Below are positions 3,251 through 28,808 of a stretch of 32,230 bases of DNA, piece by piece (position 1 is the first letter of the stretch; every line of letters starts with the position of its first letter). The notes under the pieces were generated by a model. That model was given only the letters and a program-made list of their open reading frames with translations. It searched no databases and had not been told where the DNA came from. The position numbers and the translations under genes are program-made. Origin of the DNA: an uncultured Verrucomicrobiota bacterium (GTDB lineage: Bacteria; Verrucomicrobiota; Kiritimatiellia; RFP12; UBA1067); the NCBI GenBank assembly GCA_945834475.1, contig CAMAHK010000022.1, positions 1 to 32,230 on the forward strand, written 5' to 3'.

Positions 3251-3278
3251 GTGATAAGTGATAAGCGATAAGTGATGG
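3251..3278 (+). repeat. Heptamer tandem repeat after the hyfE stop
   Basis: Four consecutive 7-mers, GTGATAA, GTGATAA, GCGATAA, GTGATGG, begin three bases after the hyfE stop codon and run into the possible hyfF starts. The sequence is AT-richer than its surroundings. The period of 7 is shared with tracts at 5915 and 27268. Confidence 0.75.
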
Positions 3279-3280
3279 TG

Positions 3281-4435
3281 ATGAAACTTAATCTTCTTAT
3301 TTTGGCTGTTACGACGGTTCTTTTTGTCGCGTGTACCGTTCACTCGTTTTTCTATATTGGACTGAAGAAGGAGACGTGGAAGTATTATGCGCTCCTCACG
3401 CTCTTTTACGGGGCGATGTGCGCGGCGTGTCTCATTGAGAACCTTGCGGGGATGTGGGTCGCGATCGAGGCGACGACGCTCCTGTCGGCGCCGCTCATTT
3501 GCCATCATAAGTCGGCGGAGTCTGTCGAGGCGATGTGGAAGTACCTCCTCATCTGTTCGGTTGGCATTGGTCTGGCGCTATTTGGAACGCTTCTCGTCTT
3601 TGCGGGCTGGCATCTCCCCGGCTTCATCTTCGTCCTTGCCGGTTATGGCACGAAGATGGGCCTTGCGCCGTTCCATACGTGGCTTCCCGACGCGCACTCC
3701 GAGGCACCGGGACCCGTCTCGGCGTTCCTGTCGGGCGCGCTGCTCAATTGCTCGTTCCTCGCGATCACGCGATTCCGCGTCATCATGCCGGGACACATCG
3801 GTCCGTTCTGCGACCAGGCGATGATCGCGCTCGGCCTCTGCTCGCTCGCGATCGCGGCGATGTTCATTGTCCGCCAGACCGACTTCAAACGTCTGCTCGC
3901 CTACTCCTCGGTCGAGCACATGGGCCTCACCCTCATCATCTACGCCCTGTCGAGCGCCGCAGCCGGGGACGGCCTGCGGTACGGTGTGGCCGAGTACATC
4001 CTACCCGCCCACATCGTCTTTCACTCGCTGACGAAGATGACGCTCTTCCTTGTCGCGGGCAACCTGTTGCTCGCGTACGGGACGCGCCAGATCGCGCAGG
4101 TTCACGGCCTCGGGCGCACGATGAAGCTTCACGCGGCGATCTGGATGGTCGGCATTCTCATGATCTGCGGCATGCCGCCGAGCGGACTCTTCCTGACGGA
4201 GCTCGGGCTCGTCCTCGCGGCCCCGACGGGACTCGGCGCCGTCGTGATGGCGCTCCTCTTCGTCGTCTTCGCCGGCATGAGCAAGGTGGCCGTCGGTATG
4301 GTCTTTGGCAATCCCGACCGTCAGCATTCGGCTGTGGCGCAGAAGATTCCGCAGGCTCTATCGGTCGTGCCGACCGTCGGTTTTGTGTTGATCCTCGCGT
4401 TGGGAAGCGCGCTGTCCATTGCCCTATTGCGCTGA
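3281..4435 (+). CDS. hyfF: HyfF-like antiporter subunit, short at the N-terminus
   Basis: A 384-residue polytopic protein of the NuoN/HyfF type. Key motifs are GTKMGLAPFHTWLPDAHSEAP (channel lysine and HxWLPDAHSEAP), MWVAIEATTLLSAPLI with the TM glutamate, and FKRLLAYSSVEHMGL. Compared with E. coli HyfF (about 526 aa) it starts at the third helix equivalent and lacks roughly 75 N-terminal residues; the C-terminal helices are present. GTG 3272, ATG 3275 and ATG 3281 are all in frame. I chose 3281 because the others lie within the heptamer repeat; no strong ribosome site separates them. It is the last gene of the membrane module; the next gene has its own promoter. No hyfG, hyfH or hyfI follows. 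Confidence 0.82.
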   Translation: MKLNLLILAVTTVLFVACTVHSFFYIGLKKETWKYYALLTLFYGAMCAACLIENLAGMWVAIEATTLLSAPLICHHKSAESVEAMWKYLLICSVGIGLALFGTLLVFAGWHLPGFIFVLAGYGTKMGLAPFHTWLPDAHSEAPGPVSAFLSGALLNCSFLAITRFRVIMPGHIGPFCDQAMIALGLCSLAIAAMFIVRQTDFKRLLAYSSVEHMGLTLIIYALSSAAAGDGLRYGVAEYILPAHIVFHSLTKMTLFLVAGNLLLAYGTRQIAQVHGLGRTMKLHAAIWMVGILMICGMPPSGLFLTELGLVLAAPTGLGAVVMALLFVVFAGMSKVAVGMVFGNPDRQHSAVAQKIPQALSVVPTVGFVLILALGSALSIALLR

Positions 4436-12290: not shown

Positions 12291-15191
12291 ATGAGCGATA
12301 TCCCACAGATTCCTGAAGCCTTGCGCGAGACGCTGCGCCTCAGCCGTGCGCGGATTCGGCGCATTCTCCTCGTGCGCGGCATCTTGACGACGCTCGCGGT
12401 GTTCGTTGCCTGCGTGCTGGGCGTGATGGCGATCGATGCGATGGTGACGATCTACTCGGCTTCGGTGCGGTGGCTCCTCTGGGCCGCGGCGTTCGGCGGC
12501 ACGGGGGCGGTTGCGTATGGCGCGGTGGTGCGTCCTTTGCGGCGGAAGTTCTCGTTGGCGGAAATCGCCGCGCTGATCGAGCGGAATCATCCCGAACTGG
12601 AGGAACGTCTGTCGACGGTCGTCGAACTGACCGGTACGCCTGAGGAGGACGTCGGCTCGCGCGAGCTGATCGCCGCGATCACCACCGCCGCCCTCGCCGA
12701 CATCCGGCGCGTCTCGCCGCAGAAGGAATTTACGGCCCGCACGGTGAAGCCGCGCCTCGTCGCGGCCGGGGCGGTCCTCCTCGTGCTGGCGGCGCTCTTC
12801 GCGGCGTTTCCCGGCGCGACGACGCGGCTCGTGACGCGTGCGCTCGTGCCCTCTGCCGAGGTCGACAACATCTACGCGAGTTCGCTCAAGGTCGCGCCGG
12901 GCGACAAGGTCGTGCTCGCGGGGTCGTCGGTCGAGATCAACCTCGCGGTCGAAGGCGGTTTCCCGTCCCGCGCCTTTGTTCGCACCTCGGTCGGGGGACG
13001 CGACGAGGCGGTCGAACGGATGACGCGGACGACGGCGGAAGAAGATGCGGGGCCTGCGTATTACACGTTCGTCTATCCCGCGGTGGCGGAGAGCTTTTCG
13101 TATCGCGTCAATTGCGGGAGCGCGCTGACGCGCGCGTACCGCGTCGAGGTCGTGCCGGAACCGAGCTACACGAATCGGTCGATAACGATCACGCATCCTG
13201 CCTACACGGGACGCGCGCCGGACACTTACACGAACAGTGCGGACGTGGTCGGGCTCGTGGGGTCGAAGGTGACGATCCGTGCTACGCCGTCGCGACCGGA
13301 CGTCACGGGCGAGGTCGAGCTGCCGGGACAGCTGATCGTTCCGGCGCGGACGCCGGACCTGACGTTCGCGTTTGACCTGACGGAAAAAGTCGAGGGAACC
13401 TGGCGCAGTCGGGTTCGCGATTCGCATGGATTCTCGAATCTCGTCGAGACGGCGTCGATTCGCGTGGTGAAGGACGCGCCGCCGACGGTGAAGATCGTCG
13501 TCCCCGAAGAGCGCACAGTCAAGTTGCCGCGCTCGGCGGTGCTGCCGATTACGATTGAGGCATCGGACGATTTTGCAATTGCGAAGCGGACGCTGGAGAT
13601 CTGTGTCGGGGCGGGCGAATGGACGGATCTGAAGGAAATGGAGGAGGATGAGATCCGCTTGCCGCTGGTGACGCTGCCGCTGGGCTCTGCTGCGGCGTTT
13701 CGTGTCCGTGTGAAGGTCGAGGATAACCGTCCGCCGGAACTGGACGGTCCGGGCGTGACGCATTCCGAAGAGGTGCTTGTCGAAATCAAGTCGTCCAGGG
13801 AAAGCGGAGGCGCTTCCCTCGACCAGCAGGATCTCAAGGAGGAGATCGAAGAGGCGAAGAAGGACGAGAATGACATCCGTCAGCATCTGGAGAAGGCCCG
13901 CAACTGCATGAACAACGCCGGGAATATCGAGAAGGGCGGCTGGCATACCGAGAACGCCCTCCGTCAGCTTGGCTGGGCGAAAGGCGAGATCGCGCAGGCG
14001 GAGCAGGGACTTTCGGACTTCATCGACGACTTGCGCCTTTCGCGCCTGGCGACGGGTGTTGAGATCTTCACGGACGTGCAGGAGCGACACGTCGTTCCGG
14101 CGCGCCAGCAGATCGAAGACGTCTATCTCTACGTCTCGGTCAAGGAGCAGGCCAAGGCCATTCAGCTCGCGCGGAAGGCAACGGAGGCGGCTTACTGGGC
14201 CTTTAACGAGGCGATGCGTAAATTCGGCATCCTGACGAAGACGGCGGAAGACCTTCAGAAACTCGCCGACCTCGCAGAGCGCGAGGAGGCGCTTGAAGAC
14301 GCGGCGGAGGAAAAGACCCTGACCGACGAAGAACTGCAGGCCGCCCGTGAGGAACTCAAGAAAGAGCTCGATCAGGAACTCAGGGATGACATGAACAAGA
14401 ACCTCGATTCCGAGATCAAGCAGGCGGAACGTCTGGCGCAAACGGCAGAGAATCTGGCGAAAAAGCAGGAGGACATCAAACAGCAGGGTGACGGCGAGGC
14501 GCAGAAACAGGCCGAGCAGAAGCTCGCCGAACAGATTCAGCAGCTCGCGAACCGGATGAGCGATCTGAAGAATGCCATCGAGAACAAGGCGGGGATTCCC
14601 GAAATGGACGAGCAGAAGACATCCGAACCCGCACGAAACGCGCAGCGTGACGCGCAGAATGCGGCGAATCAGGCGCGTGAGGCGAAGAAGGATCTGCAGA
14701 ACGGCGAGAAGTCCTCGGCTGAGGCAAAGATGGACGCCGTCCAGGATGCGCTCAAGAAAGCGCAGGAGGACCTAGCGGCTGCCAAAGGCAAGCTGGAGGC
14801 GAAGAATGCCGAGCTGAAGGCGAACGCCGAGAAGCTCAAGGGCGATAAGTCCGCCGCCGAGGCTCTCGAAGACCTGAAGGACATGCTGGGCGAAAAGGCG
14901 CAGCAGCTGGGCGAGAAGCCGCAGCAACAGCAATCGGATGACCCGTCCGATTCCCCGTCGGACGATGAGTCGTCAAAGGGGTCCAAGAAGCCCAACGACC
15001 AGAAGAAACCCAAAGGCGCCAAGGGGAAAATCGCCGGCGAGCTTGAGCCGAACCGCGGCGAGGACTGGTTCCGGATGAAGAGCGACTCGGCGAGCGGCGC
15101 GGACCGCGATCGCTACGAAGACGTGCCGGCGGAATATCGTGAGCTTGTGAAGGAATACTTCAAGGCGATTAACGCGGGAGGTGATCGATGA
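12291..15191 (+). CDS. DUF4175-like membrane protein with long coiled coil
   Basis: A 966-residue protein. It has two helices near residues 25-80 and a third at about 157-175, so residues after 175 are probably periplasmic. Beta-rich Ig-like segments (about 190-500; ITITHPAYTGRAPDTYTNSA) resemble DUF4175-type proteins of PVC bacteria. Residues about 505-900 are rich in Glu, Lys, Gln and Ala with heptad spacing, a long coiled coil, followed by a Ser/Asp/Lys-rich linker. The end, AEYRELVKEYFKAINAGG, is a short conserved helix. It lies in the MoxR operon and overlaps the next start by 4 nt (ATGA). Function unknown; a scaffold for the VWA proteins is a reasonable guess. Confidence 0.72.
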   Translation: MSDIPQIPEALRETLRLSRARIRRILLVRGILTTLAVFVACVLGVMAIDAMVTIYSASVRWLLWAAAFGGTGAVAYGAVVRPLRRKFSLAEIAALIERNHPELEERLSTVVELTGTPEEDVGSRELIAAITTAALADIRRVSPQKEFTARTVKPRLVAAGAVLLVLAALFAAFPGATTRLVTRALVPSAEVDNIYASSLKVAPGDKVVLAGSSVEINLAVEGGFPSRAFVRTSVGGRDEAVERMTRTTAEEDAGPAYYTFVYPAVAESFSYRVNCGSALTRAYRVEVVPEPSYTNRSITITHPAYTGRAPDTYTNSADVVGLVGSKVTIRATPSRPDVTGEVELPGQLIVPARTPDLTFAFDLTEKVEGTWRSRVRDSHGFSNLVETASIRVVKDAPPTVKIVVPEERTVKLPRSAVLPITIEASDDFAIAKRTLEICVGAGEWTDLKEMEEDEIRLPLVTLPLGSAAAFRVRVKVEDNRPPELDGPGVTHSEEVLVEIKSSRESGGASLDQQDLKEEIEEAKKDENDIRQHLEKARNCMNNAGNIEKGGWHTENALRQLGWAKGEIAQAEQGLSDFIDDLRLSRLATGVEIFTDVQERHVVPARQQIEDVYLYVSVKEQAKAIQLARKATEAAYWAFNEAMRKFGILTKTAEDLQKLADLAEREEALEDAAEEKTLTDEELQAAREELKKELDQELRDDMNKNLDSEIKQAERLAQTAENLAKKQEDIKQQGDGEAQKQAEQKLAEQIQQLANRMSDLKNAIENKAGIPEMDEQKTSEPARNAQRDAQNAANQAREAKKDLQNGEKSSAEAKMDAVQDALKKAQEDLAAAKGKLEAKNAELKANAEKLKGDKSAAEALEDLKDMLGEKAQQLGEKPQQQQSDDPSDSPSDDESSKGSKKPNDQKKPKGAKGKIAGELEPNRGEDWFRMKSDSASGADRDRYEDVPAEYRELVKEYFKAINAGGDR

Positions 15192-20515: not shown

Positions 20516-23500
20516 ATGAAGAGACTTCTGGACATGGTCTTGCGGCATCCGAAGGCCGTCCTGCTAGCCGTGCTTCTCGCGGCCGCGGTGGGTTTGCGCG
20601 TCGTGCCGCGGCTGGCCGTTGACGTCTTCCCCGACATTTCCGTGCCGCGCGTCACACTCCAGACCGAAGCGGGCGGGTACACGGCCGAGGAGGTCGAGGC
20701 GCTGGTCACGATCCCGCTTGAGACGGCGATGAGCGGCATTCCGGGGCTCACGTCCGTGCGTTCGAGTTCGAGCGGTGGACTCTCCTTTGTCTGGCTCGAC
20801 TTCGACTGGTCTGCGGATCTCACGCGGGCGCGTTTTGACGTCTTCGAGCGGCTCTCGCGCGTCCGTGAGTCGCTGCCGGCGGGTGTCGAGACCGAAATCG
20901 CGCCGATCGTCTCGGTGACGGGCGAGATTATGCTGGTCGCGCTGACGGTCGGGGAGGACGGCGCACAGGGGACTGCGCGCCCTACCGGACTGGAACTGCG
21001 CGAGATGGCCGAGTACGACCTCCGGCAGCGGCTCCTGGGGGTGCCGGGCATTGGCGAGGTCGCCGTGATCGGCGGACGCCTCCCCGAGTATCGTGTGGCG
21101 GTCGAGCCGCACGTGCTGGCGTCTCAGGGACTCAGCGTTTCTGATGTCATTGAGGGGGCGCGCGACACGCGCACGCGTTCGAGCGCAGGGTATCTCGCGA
21201 ATGTGGACGGCGAGGAGATTCCGTTGCGTCAGGTCGCGCGGGCCGATTCGCTCGGTCAGCTCCGCGAGAGTGCGATTCCGCTCGCCGCGGGATCGGTGCG
21301 GCTCGGGGATGTCGCCGAGGTGACGCTTGCCGGCGCACCACGGCGCGGCAGCGCGTCGTTCAACGGACGCGAAGCCGTCGTTCTCTCGGTGCAGAAGTCG
21401 CCGGGCGGCAACACGCTGGTGCTGACAAAAGAGCTGGAGTCCGTATTGTCGGGGTTCGCTGCGACGGTAAAGGATCGTGGCGTCGAGGTTCACACAGAGG
21501 CCTATCGTCAGGCCGACTTCATCGCAGCGTCCATCAAGGGCGGCGGCGAAGTCGTGCGGGACGCGGCGATTGTCGTGGCGCTCGTTCTTTTGGTCACGCT
21601 GCTCGAGTGGCGGACGCTTCTCGTCGTCCTGCTGACGATGCCGCTCTCGGTCCTGCTCGGCCTCGCGCTTTTCCCGATGCTCGGGCTCGGCGTCAACGTG
21701 ATGACGCTGGGCGGTTTTGCGGTCGCGGCGGGCGACATCGTGGACGGGGCGATCATTTTTGCGGACGCGATCCGGCGGCGGCTGCCGCTTTCGTCCGTTG
21801 CGCCGGGCGTTCTCTTTTCGACGCTGATTGTGGCGATCGTCTTTGTGCCGCTCTTGTTGCTCGACGGGCTGGAAGGGTGCTTCTTCCGTCCCCTGGCGCT
21901 CGCCTACCTCGGCGTCTTCGGTGCGTCGCTCGTGGTGGCGTTTCTCGCGGTTCCCGCGCTTGGCCGCGTGGTGGGGATGGGCGGGGCTGTACCGCCCGAG
22001 CCGAGGCCGTCAGGCCGACGCAGCCGAAGGCCGTGCGTCTCGCCCGCGGCGGGTAACGGGGAGGGCTTGGAGATGCCGCGGGCGAGACGCACCGCGGTAC
22101 GGGGTGGCGCGGAGCGTGTCTACGGATTTTTCCTGCGTGTGGCTTTGCACGTGCCGGCGCTGGTCGTCTTGCTGGCGCTTGGCTTGGCGGTTTGGGCGGG
22201 GGCCCTCGCGAAGGACTTCGGGTCGAGCTTCCTGCCGCCGTTCCGCGAGGACTCGTTCAACGTCGCGCTCTCGCTGCCGCCCGGGGCGTCGCTCGCCGAA
22301 AGCGAACGCGTCGCGGAGGCGTGCGTTCCTGAAATCGCGTCCATCCCGGGTGTTCTCTCGGTTACGCGGCGAACGGGACGCGCCGAGCGCGATCAGCACG
22401 CAGAGCCGGTCTCGAGTTCAGAATATGTCGTGCGCGTCGACTTGAATGGCGATCCGGACGGCGTTCGGACGCAGATCCGCGAACGCCTTGGATCGATTCC
22501 CGGCTGTTCGCTTCTGGTCGGCTACCCGATCGCCCATCGCATCAGCGCCGTCCTGTCGGGCACGGAGACGGAAATCGCGATCAACGTCTTCGGTGAGGAT
22601 CCCGAGGTGTTGCGGGACGTCGTTCGGCGGATGAAGGTTGCGTTGGACGGCATCCCCGGCGTCTCGGACGTCCGGGCGAATCGCGAGGTGATGGTGCGGA
22701 CGCTCAAGATCGAATACGATATGGACGCCTTGCGCGAGGCGGGGCTGACGCTGCGTGAAGTCGGCGAGCAGGTTTCGGCGGCGTTCTACGGCGTCGAGGT
22801 CGGCGAAGTGCGCTCCGGCGTCCGTCGCCGCGCGGTTGTCGTGCGGCTCGCGGGCGAAGAGTCGGAGGCGACGGCCGAGACGGTCAAGGCGCTTCTGCTC
22901 ACGAGCCGGAACGGACGCTGCGTGCGGCTCGACGAGGTCGCACAGGTTGTGCCGGACGATGCTTCGAACCTGATGCTCCGCGAAGGGGGACACCGCAAGG
23001 CGCTCATTTCCTGTAATGCGTCCGAGGGCACGAACACGGGCGATCTTGTCGCGCGGCTCCGCGAGGTCCTCGCGCCGATCGCCGCGTCCGCCGGCTGCAC
23101 GGTCACGTTCACGGGCAGCAATCAGGCGCGGGAGAGCGCGGCGAAGCGTCTCACGGTGCTGGGCGTCGTTCTCGCCGCCGTCATCGTGCTCATTCTCTTC
23201 TGTGCGCTCAAGGGCGTCCGTGCGGTGATTCTCGCGCTCGTCAACGTGCCGCTCGGGCTGATCGGCGGCATCCTCGCCGTGAAGATCGCGGATCCCGTCC
23301 TCTCGGTTTCGTCCCTCGTCGGCTTCATCACCGTCATCGGCTTCGTGATCCGCAACGGACTCCTCTTGCTCAACCGCTATCAGGACCGTCTCGCCGAAGG
23401 CGCGACGCTGGAGGAGGCGATTCGCGACGGATCGTGCGAGCGCGTCGTGCCGATCGTGATGACGTCGTTGACGACGGTACTCGGGCTCGTGCCGATCATG

Positions 23501-24952
23501 CTCGCGGGCGCGAAGCCGGGCGGCGAACTGCTCGCGCCGCTCGCGGTCGTCCAGTTCGGCGGCATCCTCGGCGCAACGCTTCTCAATCTGATCGTCCTCC
23601 CCGCGGCCACACGCCTTGTCGGGCTCTCCTCCGTACCGCGGTGCGTCCTCGCCCGCGGCGTCGGCAAGTCCCTCCCCCTCGCGCTCCCGCTCCTCGCCCT
23701 CTTCGCCGGCTGCCAGAGCTATGTCCCTGCGCCGATCGATTGGCAATCCGAAGTCGCGCGTCCCGTCGCGACTCGGATTGAGATCGCCTCGCTTGAGCAG
23801 GCGGGACAACTCGCCGTCATCGGTAACCGTGAGCTCAACGCGAAGCGTCAGAAGGCGGCTGTCTCGGATCGTGTCGCGAAGGAGATGGGCTGGTGGAACG
23901 ATCCCGAACTCGACTGTGATTACCTGCGCATTGTGAATCCCGACAAGTATCCGTGGATCGGCGGTGTGTCGCTCGCGTTCACGATCCCGCTCTCGGGGGT
24001 GCCGGGTCTGGAGGCGAAGGCGGCGGAACTCTATGCCGAGGCCGATCGTGCGGAGATCCGTGCGGCCGAACGCGAGACAGCGTCCGCCGCACGCATGGCG
24101 CTCGTGACCCTCGCGGCCCGACGTGAGACGGCCGCTCGCTTGTGCGCGGAGCTTGAGGACGTGCGTGAGATCATCGCGCTTTCGAATGCCGTGCGGCTCG
24201 CCGCCGCCGGCGAAGTGACGACGGCGGATCTCTCGGCTGCACGTCGCCGTGTGCATGCGCGTCAGCATGCGCTGGCCTCCGCCACGCGGGAGATTGCCGC
24301 GGCGGAAACAGCGTTGCGCGAATTGCTGGGACTCGATCCGCGAACCGAACTGGTCGTTTCGTCGCATGAACTTCATGTCGACCATACCCACGAACATGCG
24401 GATGTCGCTGATCCGCTCTCGCTTGTCGCGCATCCGCGCGTTCAGGCGGCACTGGCGCGACTGGCGGGCGACGAGGCGTCGCTCAAGGCAGAGATCCGTC
24501 GCCAGTATCCGGACCTCAAGCTCGGTCCGTCGTATTCGTATGAGGACGGCAACAGCCGCGCGGGGTTTGTCGCCGGTATCACCTTGCCGCTCTGGAATCG
24601 CAACCGCAAGGGTATTGCCGAGGCGACCGGTACGCGAAATGCGTCGCGGCAGGCGGCGGTTGACGCCTGGTTCGACGTGTATCGCAACCTGGCTTCAGCC
24701 TGTGCCGCACTCGATGCGCTCGAATCGCATGAAGAGCCGCCGCAGACCGACCGCAAGACGGCCGAGTCGCTTTTGGCGGCGGGCGAGATCGGTCCGCTCG
24801 ACTATCTGGCGCTCTGCGATGAGATCCTTGAAAGCGAACTTTCCGAGATCGAGCGGCGTCAGGCGATGTGTCTGGCCGTTGAGGATATCCGCCGATGGAC
24901 CGTCGTTTCGCTTGTTGTCGGCACGATGGGCAAGGATCAGTTTACGCGATGA
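20516..24952 (+). CDS. CzcA-type RND metal efflux pump fused to CzcC-like outer membrane lipoprotein
   Basis: One 1478-codon frame with two complete proteins end to end. Residues about 1-1037 form an RND pump of the heavy-metal efflux type: DVFPDISVPRVTLQTEAGG, two groups of six helices, periplasmic porter domains, and a TM4 with D410 and D417 (AAGDIVDGAIIFADA). The usual first TM4 aspartate of CzcA is an alanine here (A404). Residues about 1056-1478 form an outer-membrane factor of the TolC/CzcC type with its own lipoprotein signal (SLPLALPLLALFAG, then Cys), coiled-coil hairpins and a His-rich spot (HELHVDHTHEH). The junction (codons 1039-1049) is a copy of the dispersed GC-rich repeat, and no ATG, GTG or TTG start for the second part is seen. 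A 112-bp composite of the same repeat lies in the cytosolic loop between the pump halves (about 492-528). Natural role: export of divalent metal ions across both membranes, with the downstream adaptor. Confidence 0.85.
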   Translation: MKRLLDMVLRHPKAVLLAVLLAAAVGLRVVPRLAVDVFPDISVPRVTLQTEAGGYTAEEVEALVTIPLETAMSGIPGLTSVRSSSSGGLSFVWLDFDWSADLTRARFDVFERLSRVRESLPAGVETEIAPIVSVTGEIMLVALTVGEDGAQGTARPTGLELREMAEYDLRQRLLGVPGIGEVAVIGGRLPEYRVAVEPHVLASQGLSVSDVIEGARDTRTRSSAGYLANVDGEEIPLRQVARADSLGQLRESAIPLAAGSVRLGDVAEVTLAGAPRRGSASFNGREAVVLSVQKSPGGNTLVLTKELESVLSGFAATVKDRGVEVHTEAYRQADFIAASIKGGGEVVRDAAIVVALVLLVTLLEWRTLLVVLLTMPLSVLLGLALFPMLGLGVNVMTLGGFAVAAGDIVDGAIIFADAIRRRLPLSSVAPGVLFSTLIVAIVFVPLLLLDGLEGCFFRPLALAYLGVFGASLVVAFLAVPALGRVVGMGGAVPPEPRPSGRRSRRPCVSPAAGNGEGLEMPRARRTAVRGGAERVYGFFLRVALHVPALVVLLALGLAVWAGALAKDFGSSFLPPFREDSFNVALSLPPGASLAESERVAEACVPEIASIPGVLSVTRRTGRAERDQHAEPVSSSEYVVRVDLNGDPDGVRTQIRERLGSIPGCSLLVGYPIAHRISAVLSGTETEIAINVFGEDPEVLRDVVRRMKVALDGIPGVSDVRANREVMVRTLKIEYDMDALREAGLTLREVGEQVSAAFYGVEVGEVRSGVRRRAVVVRLAGEESEATAETVKALLLTSRNGRCVRLDEVAQVVPDDASNLMLREGGHRKALISCNASEGTNTGDLVARLREVLAPIAASAGCTVTFTGSNQARESAAKRLTVLGVVLAAVIVLILFCALKGVRAVILALVNVPLGLIGGILAVKIADPVLSVSSLVGFITVIGFVIRNGLLLLNRYQDRLAEGATLEEAIRDGSCERVVPIVMTSLTTVLGLVPIMLAGAKPGGELLAPLAVVQFGGILGATLLNLIVLPAATRLVGLSSVPRCVLARGVGKSLPLALPLLALFAGCQSYVPAPIDWQSEVARPVATRIEIASLEQAGQLAVIGNRELNAKRQKAAVSDRVAKEMGWWNDPELDCDYLRIVNPDKYPWIGGVSLAFTIPLSGVPGLEAKAAELYAEADRAEIRAAERETASAARMALVTLAARRETAARLCAELEDVREIIALSNAVRLAAAGEVTTADLSAARRRVHARQHALASATREIAAAETALRELLGLDPRTELVVSSHELHVDHTHEHADVADPLSLVAHPRVQAALARLAGDEASLKAEIRRQYPDLKLGPSYSYEDGNSRAGFVAGITLPLWNRNRKGIAEATGTRNASRQAAVDAWFDVYRNLASACAALDALESHEEPPQTDRKTAESLLAAGEIGPLDYLALCDEILESELSEIERRQAMCLAVEDIRRWTVVSLVVGTMGKDQFTR
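21989..22100. repeat. Composite palindromic element inside the RND gene
   Basis: A 112-bp block bounded by GTACCG (21989-21994) and CGGTAC (22095-22100). It contains a perfect 18-bp inverted repeat: GTGCGTCTCGCCCGCGGC (22033-22050) and its complement (22075-22092), with a 24-nt loop. The right arm extends to a full 28-bp reverse copy of the dispersed element (22075-22102); the left arm is a partial forward copy (22031-22050). The encoded stretch is Pro/Arg/Gly-rich and unlike RND proteins, so it reads as an insertion in the loop between TM6 and TM7. Confidence 0.8.
23631..23659 (+). repeat. Dispersed GC-rich element at the RND/OMF junction (forward copy)
   Basis: A 29-bp copy: CCGTACCGCGGTGCGTC, then CTC, then GCCCGCGGC. 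It is read in frame as SVPRCVLARG. It begins just after the last RND residues (ATRLVGLS) and ends directly before the lipoprotein signal peptide of the outer-membrane factor. Confidence 0.85.
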
Positions 24953-24960
24953 GGTTAACT

Positions 24961-26055
24961 ATGAAAACACGATTCCTGACAATTCTCGTTTGCGCGGTGG
25001 CTCCGGTTCTCTTGGCGCATGAGCACGAACACGAGCATGCACACGAACATGGCCATCCTCATGACCACGGGAAGTCCGTCGAGATTGCGCCGGCGATTCA
25101 GCGGACGCTGGGCTTGAAGACGGTGCATCCCGAGAAGCGACGCCTCGTGGGGGCGGTCGTCCTGACGGGACGCTACGAGCTTGCGCCGGAGGCGCGGCGG
25201 GCTGTGGTGACGCCGGTTGCGGGACGCTTGCAACTCAAGGTGAAGTCCTTTGCCCGCGTCGCGAAAGGCGACGTCCTCTTCACGGTCGCCGCGCCGAACC
25301 TCGTGTCCCTTGCGGATGAAATCGCGCTTCTCGAGAAACGTCTGGCCGTGTACCGGGATCTGAAGACGCCGAACGCGGCGCTCGAAAACGAGCTGGCGGT
25401 GAAGAAGGCCTCTCGACAGGCGTTGCTTGCTGGAACCGAAGAGGCGGACGGTGCGGTCGTCGTGCGGGCGGTGACGGCGGGCGTGGTCGAGGCGCTGCCG
25501 GCGACGGATGGCGCGTGGCTCGAGGTTGGCGCCGAGGTCGTGCGCCTCGTCGATCCCGCGGCGCTCCGCATCAAGGCGCTCGTCTCGCCGGCTGAGGTCG
25601 GAAAACTGGCGGATGGGCTCAAGTGTGGGACGGACAACGTGACGGGGGAGTTGCGCCTCGGGCTCGATGCCGAGGCGGGATTGCTGCCGGTCTATGCGAT
25701 CTTTCCGGACGGCGCGCCGAAGGGCCGCGTCGGGGCGCGGGCCTCGTTTGCCTGTGAGACGGATTCCGCGGCGCCCGAGGCGTGGTGCGTACCGCGTACG
25801 GCGATCGTGCGCGTGGGATTGCAACCGACGGTATTTGTGCGCGACGAGGACGATGAAGACCGTTTTCTTGCGATTGACGTGACGCCGGGTGCGTCCGTCG
25901 GCGGTTGGACGGTCGTGACGGGGCTTCCCGAGGACGATGATCTCGAGGTTGTCGCGGCGGGAGCCTACGAACTGAAGCTGGCGCTGGCGGCAACGGCGGA
26001 AAAGCCGGTCGGTCATTTCCATGCCGACGGCACGTTCCATGAAGGCGAGGATTGA
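24961..26055 (+). CDS. CzcB-like periplasmic adaptor, His-rich N-terminus
   Basis: A 364-residue membrane-fusion protein. A signal peptide (MKTRFLTILVCAVAPVLLA) is followed by a metal-binding run of alternating His and Glu/Gly (HEHEHEHAHEHGHPHDHG). The barrel-sandwich and hairpin pattern of RND adaptors comes next: GAVVLTGRYELAPEARRAVV, VTPVAGRLQLKVKSFARVAK, hairpin about 105-140, AVTAGVVEALPATDGAWLEV. A second His cluster closes it (HFHADGTFHEGED). GAGG (24951-24954) is well placed for ATG 24961; ATG 24949, overlapping the previous stop, is an alternative adding four residues. Adaptors bridge the RND pump and the outer-membrane channel; the His-rich tails suggest Zn, Co, Ni or Cu binding. 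Gene order A-C-B differs from the classical czcCBA. Confidence 0.88.
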   Translation: MKTRFLTILVCAVAPVLLAHEHEHEHAHEHGHPHDHGKSVEIAPAIQRTLGLKTVHPEKRRLVGAVVLTGRYELAPEARRAVVTPVAGRLQLKVKSFARVAKGDVLFTVAAPNLVSLADEIALLEKRLAVYRDLKTPNAALENELAVKKASRQALLAGTEEADGAVVVRAVTAGVVEALPATDGAWLEVGAEVVRLVDPAALRIKALVSPAEVGKLADGLKCGTDNVTGELRLGLDAEAGLLPVYAIFPDGAPKGRVGARASFACETDSAAPEAWCVPRTAIVRVGLQPTVFVRDEDDEDRFLAIDVTPGASVGGWTVVTGLPEDDDLEVVAAGAYELKLALAATAEKPVGHFHADGTFHEGED

Positions 26056-26094
26056 CGTATTTCAATGTTTCTCGCTTTCTGCGGGTGTTAGATT

Positions 26095-26103
26095 TGATAT
26101 AAT
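26095..26103 (+). promoter_or_regulatory. Extended -10 promoter of ychF
   Basis: TGA precedes TATAAT at 26098-26103; no convincing -35 is seen. The start of transcription would be near 26110, leaving a 39-nt leader with AAAGG (26133-26137) 11 nt before the ATG. Confidence 0.7.
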
Positions 26104-26148
26104 ACACGAAATACGTGAATTTGCAATTTCAGAAAGGTTACGGACGAA

Positions 26149-27267
26149 ATGGGTCTTTCGGTGGGTATCGTGGGTTTGCCGAATGTCGGCAAGTCGACTC
26201 TCTTTAACGCGCTGACGAAGAAGCAGCAGGCGGCGGCGGAGAACTATCCGTTCTGCACGATTGAACCGAACTCGGCGATTGTCGAGGTCGCCGACGCGCG
26301 TCTTGAGAAATTGGCCGAGATGGAGAAGTCTGAGCAGATCATCCGCGCGACGGTCGAGTTCACCGACATCGCCGGTCTCGTCAAGGGCGCGTCGAAGGGC
26401 GAAGGCCTCGGCAACAAGTTCCTGGCGAACATCCGCGAGTGCGACGCGATCCTGCACGTCGTGCGTTGCTTCGAGAACGACGACATCATCCACGTGCAGG
26501 AAGGCGGCAACAAGTCCGCCCCGATCGATCCTGTCGGCGACGCCGAGGTGATCGAGACCGAGCTCATTCTCGCCGACATGGAGCAGCTTCAGAAGCGCTA
26601 CGACCGCGTGAAGAAGGAAGCCCAGGCGAAGCCGCCGCTCCGTCCCGAGGCCGAGGCTTGCGCGGCGCTCCTCAAGCATCTGGAAGACGGCCATCCCGTC
26701 CGCTCGTTCCCGCGCAAAGACGGCGATCCGATCCTGCCGGTTCTCAAGGACCTCCATTTCCTCACCGACAAGAAGGTGATCTATTGCGCGAATGTCGCCG
26801 ACGACAACGTGACGGGCGAGGGTAATGCGCACGTTGCCGCGCTCCGCGACTACGCGACGAAGAACGGGTGTGAGACCGTCGTCATCTGTGCGCAGATGGA
26901 AGCCGATCTGGCGGGGCTCTCCGACGCCGAGGCGAAGGAGTTCCTCGAGAGCTATGGCGTCACGGAAAGCTCGCTCGACCGCACGATCAAGCTCGCGTAC
27001 GATACGCTCGGGCTCGCGAGCTTCCTCACGGCCGGCCCGAAGGAATCGCGCGCGTGGACGTTCCACAAGGGCTGGAAGGCCCCGAAGTGCGCGGGCGTCA
27101 TCCACACCGACTTCGAGAAGGGCTTCATCCGCGCCCAGGTCGTCGCGTACGAGGACTTCGTCAAGTACGGCGGCCAGTCCGGCGCCCGCGACCACGGCGT
27201 CTTGCGTCCCGAAGGCAAGGAGTACGAGATGAAGGACGGCGACGTGGTTGAGTTCATGTTCAACTGA
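26149..27267 (+). CDS. ychF: Ribosome-binding ATPase YchF (OLA1 family)
   Basis: A 372-residue cytosolic P-loop protein of the Obg-related YchF group, which binds 70S ribosomes and prefers ATP over GTP. The P loop GLPNVGKST lies at 9-17, switch stretches [15 protein letters not shown] and [19 protein letters not shown] follow, and the C-terminal TGS domain is clear ([20 protein letters not shown], then [19 protein letters not shown]). Length is close to the usual 363. It has its own extended -10 promoter and stands alone. The stop is followed at once by a heptamer repeat tract, then by the hairpin repeat in front of thrC. Confidence 0.96.
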
Positions 27268-27302
27268 TTGGTTGTTAGTTATTGGTTGTTAGTTGTTGGC
27301 TA
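27268..27302 (+). repeat. Heptamer tandem repeat after the ychF stop
   Basis: Five 7-mers in a row, TTGGTTG, TTAGTTA, TTGGTTG, TTAGTTG, TTGGCTA, start at the first base after the ychF stop codon. It is strongly AT-rich against a GC-rich background. Confidence 0.75.
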
Positions 27303-27310
27303 TAGAGGAG

Positions 27311-27330
27311 ACGCGACATTCCTGTCGCGT
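27311..27330. repeat. Small hairpin repeat, copy 1
   Basis: ACGCGACA (27311-27318), loop TTCC, TGTCGCGT (27323-27330): a perfect 8-bp stem. It has no T tract and is 17 nt before the thrC ATG, close to its ribosome site (AAGGG, 27336-27340). The same hairpin with a 9-bp stem recurs at 31025-31046. Confidence 0.7.
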
Positions 27331-27347
27331 GAAGAAAGGGAAAATCA

Positions 27348-28808
27348 ATGAAATTTGTTTCGACGAGAAAAGGGTTTGAAGCGACGAGCGCCGAGAGCGT
27401 GTTCCAGGGGCTCGCGCCTGACGGCGGCCTGTATGTACCGCGGTGCGTCCCCGCCCGCGGCGTTGGTCAGCTCCCCGCCCTCACCACCCTCCGCGAAGCG
27501 GAAGAGTATGTTCTCTCCATCCTCTTCGACGACCTCCCCGCCGAGGTTCGTACGGCGGCGGTCGATCGGCTTCTTTCGCGTTTCCCCGAGGGCGATCCCA
27601 TTCCGCTCGTCGAGGCTGACGGACTCCAGATCCTTGAGCTCTTCCATGGCAAGACGGGTGCGTTCAAGGACGTGGCGCTCTCGATGCTCCCCGTTTTCAT
27701 GAAGCACGCGGCGGGCGGCAAGCGTGTCCTCATCCTGACGGCGACGTCGGGTGACACGGGCTCGGCGGCGATGCAGGGCTTTGCGGGCGTCGAAGGGACT
27801 GAAGTGCTCGTCTTCTTCCCGAACGTCGGCACCTCGAAGATCCAGCGTCTCCAGATGACGACGCCGGCCGACAAGAACGTCCACGCGGTTGCCATCAAGG
27901 GCAACTTCGACGACGCGCAGGCCGCGGTGAAGCGCATCTTCGCCGATGCCGCGATCAACGCCGAGGCCGCCGCGCACGGTGTGACGCTTTCGAGCGCGAA
28001 CTCGATCAACACGGGCCGTCTCATTCCGCAGATCGCCTACTACATCCTCGCAGCGAGTCGGCTGGCCAGCGCCGCGGGCGAGACGCACCGCGGTACGGAG
28101 TGTTTTGACGTCGTGGTTCCCTCGGGCAATTTCGGCAACATCCTCGCGGCGTACTATGCGAAGATGCTCGGCGCGCCGATCGGCAAGTTCGTTTGCGCGT
28201 CGAACGTGAACGACGTCCTCGCGCGTTTCGTCAAGACGGGCGTCTACGATCCGGGCGAGACCTTCACGGTCACGAACTCGCCGTCGATGGACATTCGCAA
28301 GAGCTCGAACGTCGAGCGTCTTCTCTGGATCCTCAACGACGGGGATGGCGAAGAGGTCGCGCGGCTCATGAACGACCTGTCGACGAAGGGTCGCTACGAG
28401 CTCAACGAGAAGGCGAAGGCGAAGCTCCTTTCCGACTTCGAGGGCGGCGTCGCGACGCCGGAGGAGACCGAGGCCGAGATGCGCCGGATGAAGGACGCCT
28501 GCGGCTACATCCTCGATCCGCACACGGCCGTCGCGACCTGCGTCGCCCGCAAGCTCGGCTACCCTCGCTCCGTACCGCGGTGCGTCCCCGCCCGCGGCGC
28601 TGACACGCCTGACGTTCAGTCGATCCCCTGTGTGATCGCCGCGACGGCGACGCCGTACAAGTTCCCGGAGACCTGCGCGCGTGCGTTCGGCGAAGACGTC
28701 CTCACGACCCCGCCGCCCTCGTTCGCCGATCTCGAGAAGCTCCCGATCGCCCAGACGAAGGTCGTCGACCTCGCCGGCATCGACCAGGCGGTCAAGGATC
28801 TCTTCTAA
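27348..28808 (+). CDS. thrC: Threonine synthase with three in-frame repeat insertions
   Basis: A 486-residue PLP enzyme converting O-phosphohomoserine to threonine and phosphate. Family marks are GLAPDGGLYVP at the N-terminus, HGKTGAFKDVAL with the PLP lysine K107, LTATSGDTGSAAMQGF (phosphate cradle), NSINTGRLIPQIAYY and VVPSGNFGN. Three short segments do not fit the family and coincide with the dispersed GC-rich element: VPRCVPARG at 30-38, AAGETHRGTE at 242-251 and VPRCVPARG at 409-417. All are in frame and probably in surface loops, since the catalytic motifs are intact. AAGGG at 7 nt supports the start. It is followed 8 nt later by an unrelated glycosidase gene; a common transcript is likely. 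Confidence 0.93.
   Translation: MKFVSTRKGFEATSAESVFQGLAPDGGLYVPRCVPARGVGQLPALTTLREAEEYVLSILFDDLPAEVRTAAVDRLLSRFPEGDPIPLVEADGLQILELFHGKTGAFKDVALSMLPVFMKHAAGGKRVLILTATSGDTGSAAMQGFAGVEGTEVLVFFPNVGTSKIQRLQMTTPADKNVHAVAIKGNFDDAQAAVKRIFADAAINAEAAAHGVTLSSANSINTGRLIPQIAYYILAASRLASAAGETHRGTECFDVVVPSGNFGNILAAYYAKMLGAPIGKFVCASNVNDVLARFVKTGVYDPGETFTVTNSPSMDIRKSSNVERLLWILNDGDGEEVARLMNDLSTKGRYELNEKAKAKLLSDFEGGVATPEETEAEMRRMKDACGYILDPHTAVATCVARKLGYPRSVPRCVPARGADTPDVQSIPCVIAATATPYKFPETCARAFGEDVLTTPPPSFADLEKLPIAQTKVVDLAGIDQAVKDLF
27435..27461 (+). repeat. Dispersed GC-rich element in thrC, forward copy 1
   Basis: GTACCGCGGTGCGTC, then CCC, then GCCCGCGGC. Read in frame as VPRCVPARG, between GGLY and the LPALTTL region of threonine synthase. 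It lacks the leading CC of the other copies. Confidence 0.85.
28071..28098 (-). repeat. Dispersed GC-rich element in thrC, reverse copy
   Basis: On the + strand GCCGCGGGC, then GAGACGCACCGCGGTACGG: the 28-bp reverse complement form, one base shorter than the forward copies. Read in frame as AAGETHRGT, just before the conserved VVPSGNFGN motif. Confidence 0.85.
28570..28598 (+). repeat. Dispersed GC-rich element in thrC, forward copy 2
   Basis: CCGTACCGCGGTGCGTC, then CCC, then GCCCGCGGC; 29 bp and identical to the thrC copy at 27435 over their shared length. Read as VPRCVPARG between KLGYPRS and the C-terminal IAATATPYKFPE motif. Confidence 0.88.

Follow-up and report, generated by a model that had tools for sequence, protein, structure and literature searches.

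A REP-like palindrome that lies mostly within genes in the genome of an uncultured Kiritimatiellia bacterium

Introduction

Repetitive extragenic palindromes (REPs) are mostly intergenic, according to the available part of Di Nocera et al. 2013 (PMC3733652); those within genes are listed there, most of them in Opitutus terrae and Rickettsia conorii, and the intragenic REPs of R. conorii are identified with two Rickettsia palindromic elements (RPEs), RPE-4 and RPE-6. The present paper deals with a GC-rich repeat of 28-29 bp found in a DNA stretch of 32,230 nucleotides, called the window below, from an uncultured Verrucomicrobiota bacterium of the class Kiritimatiellia (assembly GCA_945834475.1, contig CAMAHK010000022.1, positions 1 to 32,230). 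The element has a covarying hairpin, is found in pairs, stands on either side of a gene resembling those of the REP-associated tyrosine transposases (RAYTs), occupies in-frame sites within genes and is absent in the relatives compared. It is very probably a REP-type repeat spread by a RAYT, with copies surviving in frame in surface loops of the host proteins.

The element and its hairpin

The exact element was defined as GTACCGCGGTGCGTC-N2/3-GCCCGCGGC, the reversed pattern serving as control, and was looked for in the host genome, an assembly of 2.57 Mb in 134 contigs (85.5 per cent complete) in which the window lies on contig C22. A first-pass annotation of the window had listed five full copies and a partial one; the five are exact matches, the partial copy was recovered as well (Table 1), and the search for further copies that it had proposed gave 162 exact copies in the genome, the 3-nt spacer being present in 73 and the 2-nt spacer in 89 of them, against 0 for the control. 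Within the window the 29-bp form with the 3-nt spacer has three matches at up to 3 mismatches (0 in 100 shuffles), and the 15-mer GTACCGCGGTGCGTC has five exact matches and, at up to 3 mismatches, eight against a shuffle mean of 2.5. A 385-kb sample of the host genome, that is, DNA picked around the exact copies, contains 219 copies that start with GTACCGC and keep at least 8 of 9 base pairs (220 matches, one of which was dropped as chance). The covariance model also matches diverged copies beyond this sample, among the best candidates scored (at most 150), so the genome total exceeds the sample count.

The element consists of a CNCC-GTAC end, a hairpin and, on the other side, a degenerate tag that is most often GTCTCCAAG. 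The hairpin has 6 bp, one bulged base, a further 3 bp (9 bp in all) and a loop of 3-4 nt, and the strand with 5'-GTAC folds at -11 to -12 kcal/mol with z from -3.2 to -4.4. The flank 5' of the exact copies is also biased towards C, which makes up 98 per cent at -1, 85 per cent at -2 and 70 per cent at -4. The inner stem shows 16 distinct combinations, of which 11 are fully Watson-Crick, where 2000 shuffles gave 3.8 on average and never more than 8, and in the diverged subfamilies pairing is maintained through compensatory changes, while the bulge shifts among three positions across copies. In alignment A1, where the bulge is held at one fixed position, 92.6 per cent of the cells are paired and 20 double changes are found versus 8.3 after shuffling (reached in 0 of 500). 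High copy number, an imperfect short palindrome and compensating stem changes are traits of REPs, and the element shows all three.

The core contains no stop codon in any of the six frames, as the annotation had stated. The same annotation had taken the 29-bp form as the forward and the 28-bp form as the reverse one, a rule that fails in the genome as a whole: the exact in-gene copies number 19 (2-nt) and 27 (3-nt) in the sense and 42 (2-nt) and 28 (3-nt) in the antisense orientation, and therefore each form is present in each orientation. The difference of one base is that of the length of the hairpin loop and is independent of orientation.

Pairs and a candidate transposase

Among the 219 copies there are 34 convergent pairs, with the tags inward and the members no more than 130 bp apart, the arrangement of REP doublets forming hairpins (REPINs); the remaining 151 copies are outside any such pair. 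The commonest lengths from GTAC to GTAC are 74 (nine pairs), 77 (eight) and 89 (six).

The host genome has ten matches to the Y1_Tnp profile, seven of them above the Pfam cut-off, and a RAYT-like open reading frame (ORF) on contig C1 is among the three weaker ones (Table 1). Its best NCBIfam model is NF047646 REP_Tyr_transpos (E 2.8e-16), the best PDB fold for its predicted structure is 4ER8 (E 2.1e-5), a REP transposase in complex with a REP hairpin, and in an alignment of 12 rows, one of them a fragment, HUH is invariant and Tyr208/Asn212 are nearly so; a sequence search of the PDB gave no match at E 0.01. On one flank of the ORF lies a convergent pair, 14790 (+) and 14840 (-), of 77 bp, and on the other a near-exact copy at 14017-14058 (-) with its partner at 13885 (+), so that a predicted HUH-Y1 transposase gene stands between inverted copies as in RAYT systems. 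Homologues of the ORF are present in 7 of 59 genomes of the genus, its own included, and none was found in phage records. At ten loci of RAYT homologues inspected in relatives, the gene is accompanied by other short repeats of its own; to the eye most of these are palindromes, and some contain a similar CTGGGAGA/TTGGAGA stretch. As a separate observation, one Y1 transposase of the host genome (L132:1429-2535) has a Fic-like C-terminal domain (PF21247, E 6.5e-14) and another matches an IclR-type helix-turn-helix.

Taken together, the hairpin, the REPIN pairs and the RAYT-like gene with its flanking copies point to a REP/REPIN-RAYT system whose tag is new. The same repeat might be thought a MITE-like (miniature inverted-repeat transposable element) or RPE-like element that owes its spread to an unrelated transposase, to recombination or to conversion, with no part for a RAYT; like the RPEs it is mainly intragenic, one threonine synthase loop (site 1, below) looks replaced and not extended, and the action of the RAYT is itself a proposal. 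This is improbable in view of the REPIN organisation, of the RAYT-like gene with inverted-pair copies on either side and of the RAYT homologues in six of the 58 other genus genomes, where the ten inspected loci have different repeats of their own.

Copies within genes

Genes were called with a codon-model gene finder, which makes 91 per cent of the 385-kb sample coding. Sorted as the annotation had suggested, 116 of the exact copies are inside predicted genes, 44 between genes (eight of these in the RAYT cluster) and 2 partly inside, which departs from the extragenic location of REPs in the strict sense; for 111 of the 116, both ends of the gene are 90 nt or more away. When variants are included, 167 of the 219 copies in the sample are in genes, distributed over 100 predicted genes, and 52 are outside. 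By chance 91 per cent of the copies would be expected in genes; the share found is lower (p about 2e-12, exact copies), so the genes are depleted of copies, yet they hold most of them.

Forty copy-bearing genes were scanned against Pfam at E 1e-5. Half of them were hand-picked; the other 20 came from 22 drawn at random, of which one was on no single locus and one was left over. Matches were obtained for 37 of the 40, namely 20/20 hand-picked and 17/20 random genes; those without a match are ORFs of 94, 34 and 90 aa. The copy-bearing genes include tsaD, rsmB, both fumarase parts, ispA, a class I Glx-tRNA synthetase, argS, mutS and thrC, and dxs and rsmE have two REP pairs apiece. By predicted translation, the palindrome is thus read in frame inside unrelated proteins, as the RPEs are; the reading VPRCVxARG, which had been given for the three forward copies of the window, was reproduced by translation.

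Reading frame of the copies

Codon position 1 is where 60 of the 69 sense copies start (phases 0/1/2, 60/4/5), and the outer end of the 98 antisense copies is in phase 0 in 24, phase 1 in 2 and phase 2 in 72. When no more than one sense and one antisense copy is taken per gene (genes of at least 100 aa), the phases 0/1/2 are 51/3/4 and 20/2/54, respectively. The junction motif was considered as the full cause of this bias and rejected: the phases of CNCC and GGNG in coding DNA lead one to expect 48/30/22 and 35/9/57 per cent, respectively, from which the observed phases differ with chi-square p of 1e-9 (sense) and 0.0015 (antisense), copies being treated as independent. It accounts for part of the bias, mainly in the antisense copies. 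Avoidance of arginine as the sole cause was likewise discarded, as 21 copies (3-nt form, antisense, phase 2) are read as the arginine-rich PRARTHRGT. Of the 45 antisense copies of the 3-nt form, 24 have the outer junction in phase 0, where the main sequence is read AAGEDAPRY, as against 0 of the 53 antisense copies of the 2-nt form, which would be read RGRDAPRY in that phase. We read this contrast as selection on the peptide, with an insertion bias as the alternative, and purifying selection is a likely cause of the frame bias in general.

The bias is also what would be seen if a conserved peptide motif, such as a domain, a linker or a processing site, were reused at the protein level and the DNA repeat were a by-product. 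This is scarcely credible, because 52 of the 219 copies are outside predicted genes, the same DNA is read both ways as unrelated peptides, the stems covary, the host proteins are unrelated and the peptides are absent from the relatives aligned; the identical antisense and intergenic copies already refute it.

Pairs within genes have a length of 3n+2 in 24 of 30 cases (p 2e-7), and those outside genes in 2 of 4. On this ground one may entertain, as a tentative and rather doubtful extension, a REP/RAYT family adapted to coding DNA, marked by a stop-free core, by 3n+2 pairs (the 77-bp pair beside the RAYT gene too) and by favoured frames that would yield loop-compatible peptides, and whose habitat would be the protein surface loops that sister species fill with other repeats. 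In such a family a length of 3n+2 between the GTAC ends would mean that, together with the flanking junction, the paired unit fits the reading frame.

Empty sites and protein loops

Conservation of the inserted peptides in homologues, or a lack of copies elsewhere in the genome, would have spoken against a dispersed repeat; such copies are numerous, and the peptides are present in 0 of 29 same-genus ThrC proteins aligned. As compared with these relatives, of which the nearest share about 83 per cent identity in ThrC (empty sites being compared at the peptide level), site 3 is typically longer by a net 16 residues or so, site 2 by 10-12 and site 1 by only 0-2; in a few relatives sites 1 and 2 have other, long loops. 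Likewise, no REP peptide was found in 3-5 homologues each of seven further genes, from up to five genomes. The ThrC structure model has the inserts mostly in coil, with sites 2 and 3 in its two lowest-confidence 10-residue blocks (64 and 54).

Some relatives have repeats of another kind at these places. In-frame short tandem repeats occupy the same loops in dxs, rsmE, ispA and fumarase of genome G092 (L205, L226, L224 and L219), where the repeat peptide SSEHRSIGASE is found in both dxs and rsmE, and dxs of G100 (L206) and rsmE of G067 (L228) have short tandem repeats of their own in the same loops. A palindrome is also seen in a thrC loop of G091 and G093. It belongs to a minor hairpin family, GGACGYMTCTCCGAGRCGTCC, whose 15 matches (L231-L245) are spread over four genomes among the 59 of the genus, with 1-5 copies in each; 6 of the 15 are within thrC by coordinates.

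Distribution among genomes

The exact element was found in none of 113 other genomes of the family (60 of the same genus) and in neither genome_contigs nor viral_contigs, from which its own or near-identical genome records are possibly excluded. A covariance model of 36 native variants, under strict filters, matches one of 59 genus genomes, that of the window, and none of the 58 others, where the best candidates (at most 109 per genome) were scored. The element appears to be species-specific, as judged from sequence searches. By ThrC, the nearest relatives are genomes from metagenomes that bear the titles Kiritimatiellae, Verrucomicrobia or Lentisphaerae; the gut of sheep, yak, goat and other ruminants is the source of many of them. 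The host itself is probably a gut bacterium.

High copy number and exactness of the copies might also be expected of a functional signal held by selection, for example an uptake sequence, a nucleoid or gyrase site or an RNA regulatory hairpin, and REPs of other species do bind host proteins such as gyrase, as the available part of PMC3733652 describes. Such a role is very unlikely to explain the family: the covariance model, under strict filters, finds it in a single one of 59 genus genomes, the peptides are absent from the relatives at the eight genes compared, and the host genes span many classes.

Proposed mechanism and points against it

In the favoured reading, that of a RAYT-spread REP, two REPs with their tags inward would make up a REPIN, and a RAYT, being a single-strand HUH-Y1 transposase, would recognise the hairpin on single-stranded DNA and spread copies. 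The acting transposase would most likely be the product of C1:14095-14778, among about ten Y1 proteins. In this genome most insertions would fall within genes; they would survive where the frame is kept and the added surface-loop peptide is tolerable, and selection would remove the others. Mobility, and transposition by a RAYT, are thus proposed from sequence comparisons, and the spread may be recent because many copies are identical.

Several results weigh against this reading. No excision, new insertion or polymorphism was seen, the species being represented by one genome assembly. The end motif is GTAC instead of the unpaired GTAG or CGTC that marks the GTAG and CGTC super-families of REPs (PMC3733652), the ends being GTAC and the degenerate GTCTCCAAG-like tag; CGTC is present within the stem-loop and absent from the ends. 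The hairpin has a z of only -1.6 on the opposite strand, and for two of five measures on alignment A1 there is no excess, pairs with a double change (2 versus 1.6 in the control) and further pair types (6 versus 4.7; 66 of 500). The C1 ORF scores 59.7 bits with NF047646 as against a curated cut-off of 80, and 20.6 with Pfam as against a gathering score of 23; its model is of moderate confidence, with a pLDDT of 69 and a TM-score of 0.45 to 4ER8 by query length, and other Y1 proteins of the genome (10 matches) could act instead. Finally, the ThrC loop at site 1 is scarcely longer than in the relatives, so replacement or conversion is possible there.

Copies in the window and neighbouring sequences

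The copies in the window and their host genes are collected in Table 1, together with the candidate transposase gene.

Table 1. Coordinates of the REP copies, their host genes and the RAYT-like ORF (positions in the window unless a contig is given)
Feature	Position	Strand	Remarks
Proton-antiporter-like membrane protein gene	3275..4435	+	host gene, diverged copy inside
Diverged REP copy	3956..3982	-	compensated stem; in Proton_antipo_M gene; overlooked in the first-pass annotation
CzcA-type resistance-nodulation-division (RND) pump fused to TolC-family outer-membrane factor (OMF)	20516..24952	+	host gene
Partial REP copy	22030..22050	+	left arm of pair with 22075-22100; GTACCGC end at 21989, short foreign segment between
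Full REP copy, 2-nt form	22075..22100	-	right arm of convergent pair (REPIN); in CzcA-OMF gene; exact; covariance match 22064-22104
Full REP copy, 3-nt form	23633..23659	+	between CzcA and OMF parts of the fused gene; exact, covariance match
Threonine synthase gene, thrC	27348..28808	+	host gene, three REP copies
Full REP copy, 3-nt form	27435..27461	+	thrC site 1, VPRCVPARG; exact match
Full REP copy, 2-nt form	28071..28096	-	thrC site 2, read AAGETHRGT; exact match
Full REP copy, 3-nt form	28572..28598	+	thrC site 3, VPRCVPARG; exact and covariance match
RAYT-like ORF, 228 aa	C1:14095-14778	-	among the three weaker Y1_Tnp matches

The partial copy looks like the right part of a copy that was split by a short foreign segment after the GTACCGC at 21989. 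A segment with the start GTACCGC-CCGAGCCGAGGCCGTCAGG, which interrupts the copy at 21989-22030, also occurs at C1:48798 (two places in the 385-kb sample), and the related segments CTTCGGCTG and GCTTCGCTCGGCTGTT trail GTACCGC elsewhere.

The REP at 23633 was considered as the cause of the czcA-OMF fusion and ruled out, since relatives share the fusion: a single open frame of 1438-1465 aa without stop is present in G092, G071, G080, G097 and G081, and G073 has a comparable frame with one stop flagged. In G068, G072, G098 and G059, czcA and OMF are two separate matches. In addition, the gap between ychF and thrC (27268-27330) contains a TTGGTTGTTAGT-like short tandem repeat as well as the small palindrome GACGCGACATTCCTGTCGCG, and hairpin 12-mers of the type GACGCGACA...TGTCGCGTC, with about 20-28 occurrences in the 385-kb sample, look like a second repeat family.

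Comparison with known systems

The family amounts to a natural insertion screen, with 167 in-gene copies in 100 predicted genes of the 385-kb sample, about 10-30 extra residues tolerated, insert-free sister species for comparison and a candidate transposase. The family matters for the question whether REPs are nothing but extragenic debris, and for that of mobile DNA as a source of variation in protein length. Among the papers listed on REPs, REPINs and RAYTs and on repeats in Kiritimatiellia and Verrucomicrobia, no title or abstract start points to this family, preprints and most subscription papers being outside the coverage.

As far as the available parts of PMC2817692 and PMC3116915 go, the GTAG REPs and REPINs of E. 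coli, Pseudomonas and Stenotrophomonas are similar in their short hairpin, in stem subfamilies with compensatory changes, in a copy number often above 100, in inverted pairs of comparable size (peaks of 71 and 110 bp in P. fluorescens) and in a rayt gene between inverted copies. They differ in that their end is GTAG or GTGG, and here it is GTAC with a far-side CTTGGAGAC-like tag, and in that they are extragenic, whereas the copies described here are mostly in genes. Moreover, in most families of PMC3116915 it is doublets that prevail, and here 151 of 219 copies are unpaired. The intragenic REPs of Opitutus terrae, which is verrucomicrobial and of the same superphylum as the host, and of other bacteria are alike in being REPs and dimers in frame in genes, including those for repair and tRNA enzymes; unlike the present family, they have no reading-frame bias described in the part of PMC3733652 available.

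The first-pass annotation had regarded the element as a counterpart of the RPEs in an unrelated phylum. Dispersed palindromes in frame within genes, housekeeping enzymes included, bear this out, but not as an isolated counterpart, in view of the REP/REPIN anatomy, of the RAYT-like gene and of the identity of intragenic R. conorii REPs with RPE-4 and RPE-6 (PMC3733652, available part). The likeness to RPEs, one of description and not of compared sequences, lies in palindromes that turn up as inserted peptides across many unrelated proteins. RPE-1 is longer than the present element and is not known to have a transposase; here, unlike RPE-1, a candidate transposase gene with flanking copies is present. 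Intragenic REPs are already known from Opitutus terrae and Rickettsia (PMC3733652), and, as far as the available part of that paper goes, what is new here is an extreme intragenic family with a new tag.

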